The translations under genes were made by a program, and so were the position numbers. A stretch of 64,000 nucleotides of DNA. Source: Thelephora terrestris (taxonomy: Eukaryota; Basidiomycota; Agaricomycetes; Thelephorales; Thelephoraceae). The stretch is from the NCBI GenBank assembly GCA_015956445.1, contig WIUZ02000002.1, forward strand, positions 310,001-374,000. The letters are read 5' to 3'. Positions 4,930 to 59,803 of the stretch are shown here, in pieces; position 1 is the first letter of the stretch, and each line of letters opens with the position of its first letter. Below the pieces are notes generated by a model. That model worked only from the letters and a program-made list of their open reading frames with translations, was not told the origin of the DNA and made no database searches.

Positions 4930-7075
4930 CTCGTTGTGCTGCTATTGTCTTCCTTTCCCTGCTGCGCTTCATCTTGCACATTGAATCCCACCTGCGTGTA
5001 CGAATAGGTTGTGGGTTTTGCTTGTAACACGCGCCGACGTTCAGTTAAAATTCCCGTCACCTGAGGCTGCCTGAGGCTCCCTATAGTACTTCAGGGCTGC
5101 ATCCCCTGTGAGATTAGACTTGCAGTCGTGACAGTCTCATCATCGTTTAATCCAGCGTGGGTGCTTGGGGACTGCTCGCTCAGGTACCTGAGCCAGTAAT
5201 TGGTATTCCCAGCGGATCTCCGTTCGACAAGTAGACTCAACGGAAGCGTGCCCTTCCCTTTTGAGTTGTCGAGTTAATCCGCCCAGACCTGACGATAGCA
5301 AGTTCTCGGAGGTAGGACAGAGATATCCATCATGGCCAGACTGACGGCTTCACATACTGTAACAACGCATCAGGTCGATTCTCCATGTATTCAAAACAAC
5401 GTTCGTATATTCTGCAACGCGAAACGAACACAACAGTCCTGGTAAACCTTTGTCGTCAGAAACCGTCAGATCAAAGGTTCTCTAATGCCCTGTAGAGCTC
5501 AACCAATCCAAACAAAAGAAGGGACATCCCTTCTAAGGATCTGCGGAACAGCCGAGCTGGTAAACTAAACGTCTCACCCACCTCTACGCCTGCGGGCAGA
5601 TATGAGTCCCTTCTTTTTGAGAGGTGACGACTGCCGTGGGCTCTGTAGGCCAGGGACCCCGATTGTCGTGAACGACTGGAGCCGTGTATCGCAAATACAG
5701 CTCTCGGAGAGACGGCAGGAGTTTTCTGTGTGGATCTGGTCCATCTGGATCCGGCAGCAGGAACGAGTCGAAGATCACCGCGTTGCGAAGGTCCGATACT
5801 TCAATGTCGGGAACTGTGACGAGTTCCTGTGCCACATTCGCTGGGAGGTGTCGCGAAAGCGGTGTCCTCACGTTCAAGCCCGTTGCTGGTCGCCATCGTA
5901 TCATGACGTCAGCTCCAGGCCGGTGAACTCGCCGAACCGACCTCGGGAAGGGAAAACAATAGTGTGGGGAGGGGAGCTGTGTACGATCCACGGACCCTTG
6001 ATACCTTTCGGGACCCCGAAGAACCATTGGAACGACCGACTCGCAGATGAATACAATTGATAGGTCTTGGAGAGAGTTCGGCACTTGGTGAGTAATGGGC
6101 TTGAGCGCAAGTTCCAAACGATAAGGAAACGAGGCGAGAATGACGGTATACTTTTTTTTAGCGTGCGCAGGTTTCCGTGAATTGCACACCTACGATGCAT
6201 CTTGATTGGCTCCAAGTGTGCTACAGCCGTTTGCATGTCGATAGCTCGCTTTTGAAAAAAACGCACTCACTTTTTTTCGTTCACGGACGGAGCTTGGCGC
6301 TGCGAAAAGCACAGCATCGGTACAAGTAGTTTGCACATAATTTCAATTTGAAAACCCAATCGGCCACGACCCTTTGTCACGGCTCTGCTCTAGCTAAGCC
6401 TGCACAGTTACAAAGTAACTCTCCTGCTCATGAACTATACAAGCCGAGTCCCATGAGATTCTGTGTACAAGGTGGATGGGGATGAAGTCGTTGTAGATCT
6501 AAGATTTATTTGCACCCGCGCGCGCTACCTGCCACACACAGGCTGTGCTAAGCTCCTTCCGTGAACAAAAAAAAGTGAGTGTGTTTTTCTCGAAAACGAG
6601 CTATCGACATGCAAACAGCTGTAAGCTGGATTACTGAACCAATTCTTTTCCATCCGGTAACGTCGTCGGCGCTGGACTTGCTCCGTTTACTAACCATGCC
6701 ACGGGTAGGGGAGAAAGCGGATCGGAGGTCATGGAGTGGGTTGGCGTTTGTTTTCAGCCTGTACCCCACAACCACATCGGTCGCTCCGTGATGCGGGGGG
6801 AGACCCCACGTCAATTGAGCAGGAGCCTAATGAAGTGGTGATGGAAGCGAGATTGGCCCCAGACTTTGCCCAAACGAGTCGCTTTGTCCGCATCCTATAG
6901 TATGTGGTTTTCTCTAGCCGTTACAAGATTTCTTTGGGACAAGGTCACGTGGGAGAGAAAACGATTCAAACGAAATTCCCCGTCACGTGGCCTGGTGTTG
7001 ACACCTCAACCGCGTCTGTTTCTAATCTACAAAACGCATTCTCGCCCCCGCCGTCTCAGCCTACGTCTGGCCTTC
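4930..7075. other. Long intergenic region containing an inverted-repeat element
   Basis: About 2.1 kb between the oxygenase and RAD30. Overlapping frames on both strands at 5580-6270 show no family resemblance and no consistent splicing, so I do not call a gene. The only clear structure is the TA-flanked inverted-repeat element at 6224-6621, listed separately. The RAD30 promoter should lie in the last few hundred bases. Confidence 0.5.
6224..6621. mobile_element. TA-flanked terminal-inverted-repeat element (MITE-like), 398 bp
   Basis: Two arms of about 72 bp, 6224-6295 and 6550-6621, are inverted copies of each other. The outer ends read CAGCCGTTTGCATGTCGATA on the left and, on the opposite strand of the right end, CAGCTGTTTGCATGTCGATA. 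The similarity continues through an A/T homopolymer block to an AGCT motif, with scattered mismatches. TA flanks both ends (6222-6223 and 6622-6623), consistent with the target duplication of Tc1/mariner-type elements. The interior has no coding capacity. Weak inverted similarity may continue a little outside the arms, so the exact ends are inferred. Confidence 0.6.
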
Positions 7076-50741: not shown

Positions 50742-51957
50742 CGTTTCTGTAGATCGGTTTGTTAGCGGTTCAAGTGAGTTTTGGATGAGATTGCGTACGG
50801 TAGTGGTGGTTATAGTGGAGGAAGAGCTTGGATGGAGGTTTGACGGAAGAGGGAAGGGGAGAAGGAGAAGGATTGTCGCTGGATAAATAATATCCGAATT
50901 TAATCTCAAATCTCAAATTCAGGCGAGTACCCCATTTTTTGCAAGCGCCCTCCAAATGTCATGTATATTGACCACGTGTCTCTCCGACAGATCCGACCCC
51001 TTATAGCCTGGGCTCATGTCTCCCGCCCTTACTCAACTTTGCTCGTTCCCTGCAGAATTTCTCCTTTTTTTTGACTGGGATTCCCCTACGAGATTGGAGT
51101 CGAGGTGTCCCCTAATTCCCTCTTGACACGCCTGTCGGAAGCGAGGTCGTCGCCTTCGAATGGTGATATAGCAACCGGCAGAGTGGCAGGATCTCACTCT
51201 CGCTTCAGTCTCGGTTACTTTCCCCCTCGGTCACTCAGCAATCGGGGCTTGAGTGTCCTGAAACAAGCTTGTTCCGTCCACTCAATCCACGACAACTCGA
51301 CGGGGGCAGCTCAGCCGAAACGCGCCCTAAAAGTTATCGAACCTATCAGTCGTATGTCAATCCTGTCAACGTCACCCGCCGCACTCCTATATCCCCTCTT
51401 ACACCATAATATAACACACAAATCCTGCTTCTTCCATCTCGTAGCGCCTTCGTGGCATACGGCTCGTTGTTGTTCAAGACCCATTGAATACGTCGCGTAA
51501 GCATAAAGCCCACGCGTGCCCTTGGTCCTTGCTTGATAGCCAACAAAACTCGAGGCTGGCTTCGAAGTATACATGCTTCGAACAATGACCGACAATTTCA
51601 GCCACCGGATGCCCAGGGAGTATATATTAGAGGCAGAAGAGCTAGAGCCCCAATTCAGCCCGTCAAAAACCACCGAAAACAGATTCCTCAACTACACACA
51701 TGCCGTATTTGATCGACCGACAACCCTGCGATCTCGATTGTATCCCTCTCATCATCAAGGGGGCGCGGACCTGCGCGGACTCGGCCCATCTGTGATGCAT
51801 GATGCTCTGGCCGTCAATTCTCTCAAACATCTAGTACCACATCCCGTATCAGTGATCGCTCTTTAGGCCTCAACGTTCGAACATTTTCGTCTTTTTGTGT
51901 GGCCGTGGGTGATCTTTCAGCCCAAAATGCTGTTCTTCCGTCAGCACTGGACACCTG
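50742..51957. other. Intergenic stretch before the rearranged BTB region
   Basis: About 1.2 kb. Frames at 51105-51500 and 51573-51866 on plus are not recognisable. It ends where the ~2.1 kb duplicated segment begins. Nothing else can be supported. Confidence 0.4.
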
Positions 51958-54080
51958 GCCTCTGCTCTCGGCGATCGCGGTCGGCTGGCCAGCGCATTGA
52001 GCCTTCCTGGGCTTCGCTCAATTGAACTTGGTCGCTCGCCTCAAACTCCTATCAACGCGCGACGCCGCCCTGACGAACTGCCCCCCACATCTGTATTGCC
52101 GACCAACGGATCCTTGCCGGGGTCTGAAATCGTCAGACCTGGTTCAACCTTGCTTTGTTTCGGTAAACATGAATCCTCAGCTTTCCCAACCCGCGACTCG
52201 GACCGCTAGAGATCCACAACGCGCCTATCATGTGACTCTCGGCGCCGGTCGTAACGTATTTGACCAACTTGCACTGGAGGTATTTGTTTTCCGGCTTCTG
52301 ACCTGCACTGTATCAGCCGCAGCGAAATGGAAACCTGCTTGTTTGCGCACCCACTTTTTGTATTCAACGCTCACCTGCACAGGTGACCTCGAGGAGTGGG
52401 GAAGACTTTGGTATGTCCCTTGCAAAGATGTGCAGTTTACGTTGGTGCCGTTACTCCCGTTCGGCGTGCCCAGTTAATTATTCATCTCCGGTTACGGAAA
52501 ACCAACCCCGCACGATCTCAGGGTTCCGGATCATGCGTCGCCAAATGAAGCGGGACTCACTGCAAGGTATGTAAGTGATATGTGTCGTACCGGATCTACG
52601 AGCGGCCACTCAACCGCCAAATTTAAGTCGACCGGCGGATGGCCTTTTCCCATAGACGGCGCGAATTCCCCTCGCTTGCCAACCCTACTGCCAGGGGCGA
52701 TTCACCTTTTGTTGATGCTCCGTGCCGACCTGGCTTCTTTCAAATGGACCGGTGTCAGGTTGACTGATAATCCCCTCACGAGCTTCATACGACTTTCCGG
52801 AAGATGGAGGACCCCTCTAGGGGATTCGGCGCCAAAACTTTTGTCTACGTGAAACCAGGTGGGCGCAGGTTTTTTAGGATGCCGGCTTTCGAACCAGGCT
52901 CGAGAGGCACTGACGTATTCCCTCAGAGGCGCTTCCAACAGCTCGGCCGTCGCGCACGACGATCCAGCGAGTTCACCTTCCAGGTATCCATTTGATGTGC
53001 CTTGGTGAAGGGGAGGGTATGGGGGAACGAGTTCGAAGCCTCCGGACGTGATGGGATCCTGCGTTCCTCGGATGGAAAGGAATTCCGTGTTCACAGTGTC
53101 ATCCTCGGACTCGCCTCCCTGGTTTTTTCAAGAAACCTTGCCTCATTGCCTCAAACTTCCCCCCAGCCGTTCGTTCAGTACTTCTATCCTCGCTCCCAGC
53201 TGAAGGCGTCTGATGTAGTCGTGTGGGCAGACTTGTACGCCACTGCCGACGAGTGAAACACCAAAGTTTCCATGACGGCACCGTTGGGGGGGTATGGTGA
53301 TCCCACAGTTTCTTGGGATAAGTCTCCCCGTTATGTGACCTATGCCTTGGCGTCTCATTTGGGTTTCGAGGAGGCAAGGATCTATTTAGGAAAATTCTAG
53401 CGATGGGCGTTATCTGGGGAGTTGACGGTGTTTGAGATGAAGGGGGTGGAATTCCTGATGGGCGGCTCTACCCATCAGCCTTGCATCTTCTTCAGAGACA
53501 AAGCTCGAACCGCGATCAGCTCCCATCCCCGACGAGCCCTCGGCCGACCGGAGCTGCAACTCTGCCTCGTTGGATTTCAGTACCGCGATCCATGCCCTGG
53601 GCCAGCGTGTGCCTACGAAGTCATTGCTTACCGCTGAAGATATCTATGGAAAGGTTGCAGGGGCAAACCGCCGGAGAACCTGTTCCGAATGCTACCTACC
53701 GCAACTCATTCAAGTATGTGCGCACCTGGACTCCCTTGGTGATGAAAGCAATTATCTGAGCTACCTCAGACAATTTGGGCGGACGGTCTCCGGTTCAGGC
53801 GGTAAGGGTAAGGCTACGTGTTCCCGCTTCGAAAATTCAATGTCCTCGTGTTCGGTGCTCTATTGATAATTTTTTCACTCGGAAACTTAGACAAACAACA
53901 GTCCTTACGGTTTACTAGCTCCGTTGTGTATGCGGTGCCTGCCGGCAAGACATGATTTTTGCAGAGATATGATAAAACCCTGAGATCGTGGGGACTCTGA
54001 GACCGCCTCAGTACGCTGGTCGCACGGTGTTAGACCGCCGGTGGCAATCGCCCAATGCAAAGAGCCAAAGCTGATGGAAG
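51958..54080 (+). repeat. Segmental duplication, copy A (about 2.1 kb)
   Basis: This is nearly identical to 57684-59803 in the same orientation, starting at GCCTCTGCTCTCGGCGATCG and ending around AAAGCTGATGGAAGT. Most blocks of 60 bp differ by zero to two bases up to about 53870; similarity then continues with small indels. The segment contains leucine-rich F-box-like sequence at the start (SLPGLRSIELG), unrecognised sequence in the middle, and a broken BTB gene at the end. There are no terminal inverted repeats, TG..CA ends or poly-A, so this looks like genome rearrangement rather than a transposon. Confidence 0.85.
53038..53870 (+). pseudogene. Broken BTB/POZ gene, copy A
   Basis: It opens with DGILRSSDGKEFRVHSVILG, matching the start of the intact BTB genes downstream. 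It then follows them through PFVQYFYPRSQLKASDVVVW to a TGA at 53254-53256, where the intact genes read ADKY. Homology goes on across further breaks: LASHLGFEEARIYLG, VEFLMGGSTHQ, PTKSLLTAEDIYGKVAGANR and CSECYLPQLIQVCAHLDSL. The family variable loop is shortened (LPQTSPQPF). It has lost its ATG region. The same stop is present in copy B. Confidence 0.75.
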
Positions 54081-54455: not shown

Positions 54456-54486
54456 ATGGCCCCTTATGAATTCGATGCCCCCGATA
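54456..54486 (+). other. Original 5' end of BTB gene 2, separated by an element insertion
   Basis: ATGGCCCCTTATGAATTCGA encodes MAPYEFDAPDT, the same start as intact BTB gene 3 (MAPYDFNAPDA). It stops making sense exactly at the left end of the inverted-repeat element at 54487. Joining 54486 to 54931 restores a continuous match to gene 3 (APDTDAVLRSLDGEE), so this is the displaced former first codons. Confidence 0.8.
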
Positions 54487-54928
54487 CAGTTGAAATTGTT
54501 ATAATGCATGTGGTGAAAATGCATATTTTTGAAAGTGCATAAGGTTTTTGTGGGAACGGTGCTCGTCCGGTGTGATTTTATATTGAAATTGCATAACGCA
54601 TAATGCATAACCGCCGGGGTGAACTCCCCCTGCCATTTATGCATTTTCAGCATCAGAATATACGGGGCTAATGTTTTATTTTGAAGTAATTTTCACCAGT
54701 CAGCTTGTGGTGTTTGTGGAAAGGGATTTACAGCAGCCGCAAGTTTAGAGTAGCGCAACAAACAGCCCCCGAAGGATGCAAGCCTGCTCCGGGACAAGCA
54801 ACACTGTCACGCTTTGTGCGTATTGTCACACGGTGTTACAATATGTCACAAACTTGGTTGTGCATAAACCCGAAACTGCATTGAAATTTCTAGGGAACGG
54901 ACGGTATGCATTATTACAATTTCAACTG
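54487..54928. mobile_element. 442-bp TA-flanked inverted-repeat element (MITE-like) inserted in BTB gene 2
   Basis: The left end CAGTTGAAATTGTTATAATG and the right end, read on the opposite strand, CAGTTGAAATTGTAATAATG are inverted repeats of about 23 bp with one mismatch. TA flanks both sides (54485-54486 and 54929-54930). Removing the element plus one TA restores the coding match to BTB gene 3, which confirms both borders and the target duplication. The interior is AT-rich with short palindromes around ATGCATAAC and no coding capacity. A non-autonomous Tc1/mariner-type element is the best fit, though a partner transposase is not in the window. Confidence 0.85.
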
Positions 54929-55697
54929 TACAGACGCCGTTTTGCGTTCTTTAGATGGGGAAGAGTTCCCCGTTCACCGATTAATCCTCGGTCTCTCTTC
55001 CCCAGTGTTCCAAGGCATGCTTGGCTTGCCTCAACCCAACACCAATACCTCTAAGAAATCCACCATTGATCTCTCCGACCCCTCCGATACACTCAAACCC
55101 TTCATTCAGTACCTCTATCCTCGATCACCACCCAAAATCACAGACATATCGATGTGGGCAGCGTTGTATGCCATCGCCGACAAGTATAACGCAGAAGTTG
55201 TCATGGAGCCGCTGCGAGATATGCTGATCCCACGATTTCTCGAAACGCACCCACTGCGTGTCTACGCCTTCGCGTCGCAATGGGGTTTCGAGGAGGAGGC
55301 GAGGATCGCGTCCAGGAGAACTTTGACGATGGATATACTCAACGATTTTCCTCGAGAGGAAGCGGAATTCATGGGCGGCGCCGCATGTCAGCAGCTATTA
55401 TTCCTTCACTTCAATCGCCGAGAAGCGGCTCGAGCTGTAGTGGGAAATCATCCCCCTCCGTCGTCGAACAGCCCGCTCTGCCAATGTCCTCCACCGAATT
55501 ACACCTGCTTGGTCCTAGCTCTGTGTCAGCATGTGGCTACACGACCTTGGCTAACTGCTGAAGAGCTGTATGGAGAGGTTGGTAAATGGGATTATCCCGG
55601 CAAATGTAACAGCACCTGTCGCAATACGATCAAGAATATGTCCGCGTACTTTTCTTCTCTCTTGAAAGGATTATCCGATTTGCCTCAAACAATTTGA
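54906..55697 (+). CDS. BTB/POZ-domain protein, gene 2, with start codon inside an inserted element
   Basis: One exon, 263 aa if started at the ATG at 54906. The BTB core is DAVLRSLDGEEFPVHRLILG, SSPVFQGMLGLPQP, PFIQYLYPRSPPKITDISMW, then AIADKYNAEVVMEPL and FASQWGFEEEARIASRRTLT. The C-terminal half has a Cys-rich part (CQCPPPNYTC, CNSTCRNTIKN) and ends LSDLPQTI. This family is abundant in Agaricomycetes; roles may include adaptor functions for Cullin-3 ligases, by analogy. The first eight residues (MHYYNFNC) come from the right inverted repeat of the inserted element. The original start lies at 54456. Whether the new start is used, or the element is spliced out, is not known. Confidence 0.8.
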   Translation: MHYYNFNCTDAVLRSLDGEEFPVHRLILGLSSPVFQGMLGLPQPNTNTSKKSTIDLSDPSDTLKPFIQYLYPRSPPKITDISMWAALYAIADKYNAEVVMEPLRDMLIPRFLETHPLRVYAFASQWGFEEEARIASRRTLTMDILNDFPREEAEFMGGAACQQLLFLHFNRREAARAVVGNHPPPSSNSPLCQCPPPNYTCLVLALCQHVATRPWLTAEELYGEVGKWDYPGKCNSTCRNTIKNMSAYFSSLLKGLSDLPQTI

Positions 55698-56143: not shown

Positions 56144-56932
56144 ATGGCCCCTTACGACTTCAACGCCCCCGATGCGGACATTGTTTTCCGTTCTTCAGAC
56201 GGGAAAGAGCTTCGTGTCCATCGCCTTATCCTCAGTCTCTCTTCCCCGGTTTTCCAAGGCATGTTCGGTTTGCCCCAACCTTCCACCGAGATCCTCAACA
56301 TCGATATCCCCGATCCTTCCTGTGCTCTCGAGCCCTTCATCCAATATCTCTATCCGCTTTCGCCACCAAGGGTCACAGATATATCGATGTGGGCGGCATT
56401 GTATACAATCGCTGAGAAATATGGAGCAGAGGCTGTTATGGAGCCGCTTAGGGATATGTTAATTTGCAGATTTCTCGAGACATCTCCACTGCGTGTTTAC
56501 GCCTTGGCATCACGCTGGGGTTTCACGGAAGAAGCGAGGATTGCGTCTAGGAAAACCCTCACTATGGATATATTCAAACATTTCCCCCCAGAGGATGCGG
56601 AACTGATGGGCGGTGGCGCTTGCCAACAACTTTACCTCCTTCATTTCAATCGTCGAGAAGCGGCTCGAGCCTTGGTGGAAAAACACCCTCTCCCGGTGTC
56701 AACCGACTCGTCCTGCACATGCTCCCCGCTGAATTGCAAGCGCGTGGTCTCGGCTCTGAGTCAGCGCGTAGGTACGAGACCATGGCTCACTGCTGAAGAG
56801 TTGTGCGAGGAGATTGCCAAAGGGGACTATCCAAAGAAGTGTGGCAATAACTGCCGCAACGCGCTCAAGAACGTGCACGCGTACTTCACTTCCCTCCTGA
56901 GAGCACTATCGGATCTGCCTCAGACAATTTGA
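56144..56932 (+). CDS. BTB/POZ-domain protein, gene 3, intact
   Basis: One exon, 262 aa. It starts MAPYDFNAPDADIVFRSSDG at the ATG at 56144; the frame is open upstream to 55892, but this ATG matches the family start. Parts: the BTB fold (KELRVHRLILSLSSPVFQGM, PFIQYLYPLSPPRVTDISMW, LYTIAEKYGAEAVMEPLRDM), helices (SRWGFTEEARIASRKTLTMD, then GGGACQQLYLLHFNRREAAR), a Cys pair region (CTCSPLNC, CGNNCRNALKN) and the end LRALSDLPQTI. It is alignable along its whole length with gene 2, 450 bp upstream, so the two are tandem duplicates. This is the only copy here with an undisturbed start. Confidence 0.85.
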   Translation: MAPYDFNAPDADIVFRSSDGKELRVHRLILSLSSPVFQGMFGLPQPSTEILNIDIPDPSCALEPFIQYLYPLSPPRVTDISMWAALYTIAEKYGAEAVMEPLRDMLICRFLETSPLRVYALASRWGFTEEARIASRKTLTMDIFKHFPPEDAELMGGGACQQLYLLHFNRREAARALVEKHPLPVSTDSSCTCSPLNCKRVVSALSQRVGTRPWLTAEELCEEIAKGDYPKKCGNNCRNALKNVHAYFTSLLRALSDLPQTI

Positions 56933-57670: not shown

Positions 57671-57683
57671 GTAAGGATACCTT

Positions 57684-59803
57684 GCCTCTGCTCTCGGCGA
57701 TCGCGGTCGGCTGGCCAGTGCATTGAGCCTTCCTGGGCTTCGCTCAATTGACCTTGGTCGCTCACCTCAAACTCCTATCAACGCGCGACGCCACCCTGAC
57801 GAACTGTCCCCACATATGTATTGCCGACCAATGAATCCTTGCCAGGGTCTGAAATCGTCAGACCTTGTTCAACCCTTGCTTTGTTTCGGTAAACCCGAAT
57901 CCTCAGCTTTCCCAACCCGCGACTCGGACTGCTAGAGATCCACAACGCGCCTATCATGTGACTCTCGGCGCCGGTCGTAATGTATTTGACCAACTTGCAC
58001 TGGAGGTATTTGTTTTCCGGCTTCTGACCTGCACTGTATCAGCCGCAACGAAATGGAAACCTGCTTGTTTGCGCACTACCACTTTTTGTATTCAACGCTC
58101 ACCTGCACAGGTGACCTCGAGGAGTGGGGAAGACTTTGGTATGTCCCTTGCAAAGATGTGCAGTTTACGTTGGTGCCGTTACTCCCGTTCGGCGTACCCA
58201 GTTAATTATTTATCCCCGGTTACGGAAAACCAACCCCGGACGGTCTCAGGGTCCCGGATCATGCGTCGCCAAATGAAGCGGGACTCACTGCAAGGTATGT
58301 AAGTGATATGTGTCGTACCGGATCTACGAGCGGCCACTCAACCGCCAAATTTAAGTCGACCGGCGGATGGCCTTTTCCCATAGACGGCGCGAATTCCCCT
58401 CGCTTGCCAACCCTACTGCCAGGGGCGATTCACCTTTTGTTGATGCTCCGTGCCGGCCTGGCTTCTTTCAAATGGACCGGTGTCAGGTTGACTGATAATC
58501 CCCTCACGAGCTTCATACGACTTTCCGGAAGATGGAGGACCCCTCTAGGGGATTCGGCGCCAAAACTTTCGTCTACGTGAAACCAGGTGGGCGCAGGTTT
58601 TTTAGGATGCCGGCTTTCGAACCAGGCTCGAGAGGCACTGACGTATTCCCTCAGAGGCGCTTCCAACAGCTCGGCCGTCGCGCACGACGATCCAGCGAGT
58701 TCACCTTCCAGGTATCCATTTGATGTGCCTTGGTGAAGGGGAGGGTATGGGGGAACGAGTTCGAAGCCTCCGGACGTGATGGGATCCTGCGTTCCTCGGA
58801 TGGAAAGGAATTCCGTGTTCACAGTGTCATCCTCGGACTCGCCTCCCTGGTTTTTTCAAGAAACCTTGCCTCATTGCCTCAAACTTCCCCCCAGCCGTTC
58901 GTTCAGTACTTCTATCCTCGCTCCCAGCTGAAGGCGTCTGATGTAGTCGTGTGGGCAGACTTGTACGCCACTGCCGACGAGTGAAACACCAAAGTTTCCA
59001 TGACGGCACCGTTGGGGGGGTATGGTGATCCCACAGTTTCTTGGGATAAGTCCCTCCGTTATGTGTCCTATGCCTTGGCGTCTCACTTGGGTTGCGAGGA
59101 GGCAAGGATCTGTTTAGGAGAACTCTGGCGATGGGTATTATCTGAGGAGTTGACGGTGTTTGAGATGAAGGGGGTGGAATTCCTGATGGGCGGCTCTACC
59201 CATCAGCCTTGCATCTTCTTCAGAGACAAAGCTCGAACCGCGGTCAGCTTCCATCCTTGACGAGCCCTCGGCCGACCGGAGCTGTGACTCTGCCTCGTTG
59301 GATTTCAGTACCGCGATCCATGCACCAAGCCAGCATGTGCCTACGAAGCCATTGCTTACCGCTGAAGATATCTATGGAGAGGTTGCCGGGGCAAACCGTC
59401 GGAGAACCTGTTCCGAATGCTACCTACCGCAACTCATTCAAGCATGTGCGCACCTGGACTCCCTTGGCGTTGAAAGCAATCATCTGAGCTACCTCAGACA
59501 ATTTGGGCGAACGGTCCCCGGTTCAGGCGGTAAGGGTAAGGCTCCGTGTTCCCGCTTCGAAACATTCAATGTCCTCGTGTTCGGTGCTCTATTGATAATT
59601 TAGACAAACAACAGTCCCTTGCGGTGTGCTAGCACTTAGTTCCGTTGTGATGCGGTGCCTGCCGGGGCAAGACATGATTTGTGCAGAAACGTGATAATAA
59701 CAGAGAGCGTGGGGCTGTTGACTGCCTCAGTAAGTTGGTCGCACGGTGTTAGACCGCCGATGGCAATCGCCCAATGCCAAGAGCCAAAGCTGATGGAAGT
59801 TAC
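57684..59803 (+). repeat. Segmental duplication, copy B (about 2.1 kb)
   Basis: The partner of 51958-54080, same orientation, offset about 5.73 kb. It begins directly after an F-box fragment, whereas copy A does not, so one border differs. Small differences such as AACCGGACGGTCTC versus AACCCGCACGATCTC show slight divergence. It contains the second broken BTB copy. Confidence 0.85.
58766..59600 (+). pseudogene. Broken BTB/POZ gene, copy B
   Basis: Same content and same first stop (TGA at 58982-58984) as copy A: DGILRSSDGKEFRVHSVILG, PFVQYFYPRSQLKASDVVVW, then VSYALASHLGCEEARICLGE, PTKPLLTAEDIYGEVAGANR and LPQLIQACAHLDSLGVESN. Some later positions differ from copy A, and some are closer to the intact genes (for example AEDIYGEV). 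The shared stop means the gene was already broken before the segment was copied, or the copies have exchanged sequence since. Confidence 0.75.

Follow-up and report, generated by a model that had tools for sequence, protein, structure and literature searches.

Pogo-type (IS630-Tc1-mariner) MITEs are short elements with TIRs and a TA duplication, and their ends are held in common with a DDE_1 element of the same genome. In the part of PMC7325037 consulted, a DD30D spacing is reported for several pogo groups and Fot1, the best-known fungal pogo group, is placed among the DD35D groups. The mimp MITEs of Fusarium oxysporum are found at the 5' side of genes, upstream of start codons, in the available sections of PMC3599309, and the available sections of PMC9860276 describe introners as TIR/TSD elements in coding exons and those of ascomycetes as being without TIRs and TSDs. 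A literature search at the level of paper titles returned no published MITE whose TIR supplies a start codon, which may exist elsewhere, and the portions of PMC3411680 and PMC6593561 consulted held nothing bearing on the start-codon question.

The element described here lies in a 64,000-nt window (the whole stretch of DNA analysed, C12:310001-374000; unprefixed positions are those of the window), and copies of it were searched for across the whole genome of 40.6 Mb and 60 contigs. It resembles the pogo-type MITEs in its length, TIRs, TA duplication and ends shared with a DDE_1 element, and differs from Fot1 in that its 2.48-kb relatives have a DD30D spacing, as against the DD35D groups among which Fot1 is placed in the consulted part of PMC7325037. 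Like the mimps it is a MITE of a fungus and is situated on a gene's 5' side, but it interrupts the coding sequence and brings with it an ATG in frame, whereas those treated in the available sections of PMC3599309 lie upstream of start codons. It shares with the introners of PMC9860276, as far as those sections go, the position of a TIR/TSD element in a coding exon, but unlike them it did not yield credible in-frame splice sites in a scan for single introns. The features of the locus are listed in Table 1.

Table 1. Features of the interrupted BTB gene, the inserted element and the neighbouring gene (window positions)
Feature	Position	Strand	Basis and remarks
Native 5' end of BTB coding sequence	54456-54486	+	10 codons and 1 base, closing with the left TA (54485-54486); translation and comparison with the neighbour
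442-bp pogo-type MITE, C12 copy of the family (judged from sequence)	54487-54928	+	TIRs; TA on both sides; 4 other full-length copies, with interrupted, truncated and diverged ones besides
Left 23-bp TIR	54487-54509	+	Inverted-arm comparison, TIR pattern search
Left 197 bp of MITE	54487-54683	+	Resembles (81%) the left end of the 2.48-kb C56 element ahead of the first transposase-frame ATG (position 273 of that element); oriented as the BTB gene
Right 125 bp of MITE	54804-54928	+	82% like the end of the C56 element just beyond the transposase stop (element position 2358)
Right 23-bp TIR	54906-54928	-	Plus-strand reading opens with the in-frame ATG 54906
Open frame from TIR ATG (MHYYNFNC plus BTB protein, 263 aa)	54906-55697	+	Stop at 55695-55697; BTB match over residues 8-107
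Right TA of target-site duplication (left copy 54485-54486)	54929-54930	.	TA at family ends, empty sites
Uninterrupted tandem neighbour, 262-aa BTB protein, paralogous uninserted gene	56144-56932	+	Translation, Pfam BTB match

A sequence-only reading of the window had described a 442-bp, TA-flanked inverted-repeat element splitting a BTB gene, and this description was borne out by the 23-bp TIRs and by further copies elsewhere in the genome. The inverted arms, taken with the TA on either side (54485-54509 and 54906-54930), are 25 nt long and 96% complementary, with a single mismatch between the TIRs themselves. At least five complete copies are present in the genome (copy counts from this own-genome search being lower bounds), namely that on C12 and four others at 97-100% identity, which differ from it at 1 of 442 positions (C60), 11 (C34), 14 (C23) and 14 (C1), those on C23 and C1 being identical to each other. 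A chance inverted repeat was ruled out by these four further complete copies. Incomplete or diverged members were found on C59 (with a nested insertion), C16 (truncated) and C6, C4, C60 and C2 (diverged). A search of the genome with a TIR pattern, allowing up to 3 mismatches, gave 18 sites and none with a reversed control pattern, and TA adjoined the TIR at 16/16 ends in eight members examined that have both ends (two long and six short, one of the short ones carrying a nested insertion). The search for coding capacity gave no stop-to-stop frame of 80 aa or more wholly inside the 442-bp element. In the C59 copy, the additional ~640 bp were found to be a different inverted-repeat element nested inside, with ends GAGYGACTTTCCATAGCA and a possible 3-bp duplication, AGT.

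Empty sites were recovered for other members of the family. When the flanks of the C59 copy were joined they matched C59:220640-220838 over 187/200 bp with one TA and a gapless junction, and a second empty site, at C1:4369054, matched at 129/151 (85%) with 7 gap positions, none of them at the TA. The joined flanks of the long element on C56 matched C13:83594 at 100/111 with one TA, only 11 bp lying beyond the junction on the far side. No empty allelic copy of the C12 BTB locus was found among the 29 BTB matches listed, a number that is a lower bound. At C12, the element and one TA together add 444 bp, a multiple of three; counting both TAs as element leaves the joined frame two bases short, and the paralogue thus supports a TA duplication.

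Two of the TIR pairs lie ~2.48 kb apart (C23:1208254-1210728 and C56:1035049-1037536) and bound elements that are 98% identical. Exon frames in both match DDE_1 (PF03184), the larger C56 frame with an E value of 4e-23, and the spacing between the second and third of what we take to be the catalytic aspartates is 30 residues in both copies (DD30D). In a genome-wide DDE_1 search one TAA, either an intron or a lesion, was located within the DDE_1 match of both copies, and a further six places gave matches, five of these being on different contigs. A match of the transposase to the DNA-binding domain HTH_Tnp_Tc5 (E 0.00094, 19.6 bits) fell below the cut-off of 22.2. The MITE is also similar to the C23 long element at its left 197 bp (75%) and right 125 bp (80%), while its middle ~120 bp is not common to the 2.48-kb elements. 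Because the shared ends fall before the first ATG and after the stop of the transposase, the MITE looks like the 5' and 3' non-coding sequence of a pogo-type element, apparently of a sister lineage and not of the C23 or C56 copies. Its ends are 18-25% diverged from both transposase elements and its middle is unshared, so that it is no simple recent deletion derivative of either. Judged from its ends, target site and relatives, the 442-bp element is a pogo-type MITE.

Further observations were made at the long elements. That on C56 (L028) appears to interrupt or border on an exon of an RCC1-repeat gene, with an RCC1 match in the adjoining frame, and a related uninserted frame is present at C13. 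A minisatellite-like open frame with repeats of the HAPWVVQHYPFPMPHG type (L027, 324-1310) lies ~1 kb from the C23 long element, the right flank of which matched at least 31 further places (40 of 99 candidates scored).

The ATG at 54456 had been proposed as the native start of the BTB gene (MAPYEFDAPDT), and both translation and the match with the neighbour confirmed this. From this ATG the frame (MAPYEFDAPD...) reads into the element, which is inserted after codon 10, at the codon 10/11 border, and meets a stop after 28 codons, while the remainder of the BTB sequence, 54931-55697, is open. It had also been claimed that deleting the element and one TA rejoins the gene as in the neighbour at 56144. 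The flanks fused with a single TA did give a 265-aa frame without stops or frameshifts of its own over 265 codons, and the alignment with the neighbour was gapless at the insertion site and over the first 50 residues, with a single gap of 3 residues after residue 50 and 207/786 aligned nt differing. An ancestral intron at this position was ruled out, as 14/14 BTB paralogues run through the site from an ATG (14/20 loci retrieved and 14/29 matches; the two window genes, L044, L045, L047 and L053 were left out). Upstream of ~54449 no sequence common to the 5' regions of the two BTB genes was detected, except for a 16-bp match out of order.

A Pfam BTB match is present in the neighbour as in the frame that starts at the TIR ATG, the two being 69% identical. 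For the BTB pair, dN and dS were 0.19 and 1.07 by NG86 and 0.21 and 0.86 by YN00 (dN/dS ~0.18); from the low dN relative to dS by both methods it follows that the pair diverged under constraint, that is, under purifying selection. The pair is flanked by direct repeat pieces (51949-52650 and 57675-58378, 95-98% identity, spacing 5726-5728), and further on in each copy of the repeat there is a BTB-like match with two stops, near 53029 and 58757.

The C12 copy shows 1 change in 442 bp relative to the C60 copy, a change that is private among the five complete copies, and on this sequence comparison the insertion is young. At such an age ~1.8 substitutions and ~0.08 stops (counting substitutions only) would be expected in 792 bp. 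The open downstream frame was consequently rejected as evidence for a living gene, since a dead gene of that age would be equally open; the earlier statement that the frame stays open for 263 codons is correct, but with an insertion too young to have decayed it says little.

The most likely explanation of the locus is that a pogo-type MITE recently disrupted the BTB gene and that the BTB protein has been lost or strongly reduced. The anatomy of the gene, the other copies, the paralogue and the empty sites of relatives show that the MITE entered an intact gene at a TA on the border between codons 10 and 11 and duplicated that TA. A transposase like that of the 2.48-kb elements, the ends of which are nearly the same, probably mobilised it in trans, although the TAA in both of these copies, together with at least five other DDE_1 places in the genome, argues against them as the mobiliser. 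Transcripts from the native promoter would be translated from the native ATG, which is in a strong context (A at -3, G at +4), and would terminate at the stop within the element, whereby the BTB protein would most likely be lost or strongly reduced; the TIR ATG would at best allow low-level initiation of a near-normal BTB protein. Several features argue against loss: the frame opened by the TIR ATG is undamaged and retains its BTB match, this ATG has G at -3, the residues before the BTB core vary among the 14 paralogues, suggesting that a changed N-terminus may be tolerated, and the left part of the MITE, which resembles the 5' non-coding end of a pogo element facing the gene, could start a transcript inside the element.

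A rival proposal is that the insertion replaced the start of the gene, in which the MITE gives a promoter from sequence resembling the 5' non-coding region of a transposase gene, the TIR gives the ATG, and an MHYYNFNC-BTB protein would be made from a transcript starting in the element; we regard this as possible but unlikely. The right inverted repeat does contain an ATG in frame with the BTB domain, as had been reported, and the predicted N-terminal peptide of its frame is MHYYNFNCTDAVLR. In support of a new start, 263 open codons follow this ATG with the BTB match intact, the left 197 bp resemble, at 81%, the sequence ahead of the first transposase ATG and run in the direction of the gene, and the 14 paralogues examined differ in their N-terminal lead-in. 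In addition, MHYYNFNCTDAVLRS retains both Y-x-F and the DAVLRS strand, spaced two residues more closely than in the native protein, and a BTB fold would be expected of the product if it is made.

The frequency of such ATGs argues against a new start. Reading outwards, an ATG was found at 18/18 family ends in the TIR pattern search (3 mismatches allowed), and seven open codons followed it at the 17 ends read, the pattern used here having itself required the ATG; exceptions among the family ends are the C16 copy, in which one end is lost, and the diverged right end on C6, which has no ATG. A long outward frame was seen only at the C12 right end, while the other 16 ends read were open for 9-55 codons and gave no frame above 55. 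With in-phase insertion defined as the T of the TA being the third base of a codon, the TIR ATG would be placed in phase at 12/32 TA sites of the interrupted gene and 12/26 of the neighbour, in either orientation. An in-phase ATG as a sign of selection was rejected on this baseline of ~0.4, and the in-frame ATG is best seen as a by-product of the outward-open TIR sequence and a ~0.4 chance of landing in phase, which makes it weak evidence for a new start.

The position of the ATG within the transcript also argues against a new start. Eleven ATGs precede 54906, from 54456 to 54843, the native one being the first and eight lying inside the element; that at 54776 opens a 92-codon frame overlapping the BTB start. 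A start replacement free of these eleven would thus need a transcript start within 54844-54905 or a spliced leader. Were the transcript to start in the left part, ATGs would remain ahead of 54906: three in the left 197 bp (54603, 54639 and 54671) and two past them (54776 and 54843). The suggestion that the element may bring a new promoter is strengthened by the likeness of its left part, facing the gene, to pogo 5' non-coding sequence, and weakened by its right 125 bp, which correspond to sequence past the transposase stop and might hold the end of the transposase transcript. A sigma-70 promoter scan was set aside, as the model is bacterial and the host is a fungus. Start replacement is thus not favoured, given the eleven ATGs, the ~0.4 baseline and the young insertion, and has a small chance of being correct next to loss or strong reduction of the protein. 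A broader version, in which the family is a portable promoter-plus-start-codon cassette whose TIRs offer an ATG and seven open codons outwards at both ends, so that any in-phase insertion 5' of a domain re-starts a gene, appears slightly more doubtful still; were it true, the BTB gene would exemplify it at an early stage, with MHYYNFNC in place of the first ten codons and the BTB fold preserved.

It is very unlikely that the BTB copy was already dispensable or dying when the element arrived as a neutral passenger in a tandem cluster with two degenerate members. The pair of stops in each of the BTB-like matches at C12:363029 and C12:368757 (window positions 53029 and 58757) and a close intact paralogue next door fit such a history, but the 265 codons of the interrupted gene contain neither a stop nor a frameshift apart from the insertion, and the dN/dS of the pair is ~0.18.

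The least probable reading, for which we see hardly any likelihood, is the intron-like splicing that had been offered as an alternative, in which all or part of the element is removed from the transcript, as with an introner, and the native start remains in use: in a scan limited to single introns of at least 40 nt, seven GT..YAG pairs do bring the native ATG into phase with the BTB frame, but all are weak, the best of the seven donors matching only 2/4 scored consensus positions and a CTRAY site 10-60 nt before the acceptor being found in 0/7 solutions. Removal from GT 54489 in the left TIR to the CAG ending at 54933 (right TA and flank) would take out 445 nt and break the frame, and the sole GTRNGT donor (GTGCGT, 54816) lies inside the element, past the point where the native frame terminates; paired with TTTCTAG, an acceptor whose last base is 54893, it would give a 78-nt intron within the element that has no CTRAY and cannot rejoin the native start.

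Recent disruption of the BTB gene by a pogo-type MITE is the reading we retain, and, judged from sequence, the C12 insertion would remain an ordinary insertional mutation. It is a clean, datable case of a pogo-type MITE in a coding exon, and one genome holds its transposase-bearing relatives, the empty sites of other members and an uninterrupted tandem paralogue of the gene. The locus makes an easy test of whether TIR-borne ATGs can become real starts.
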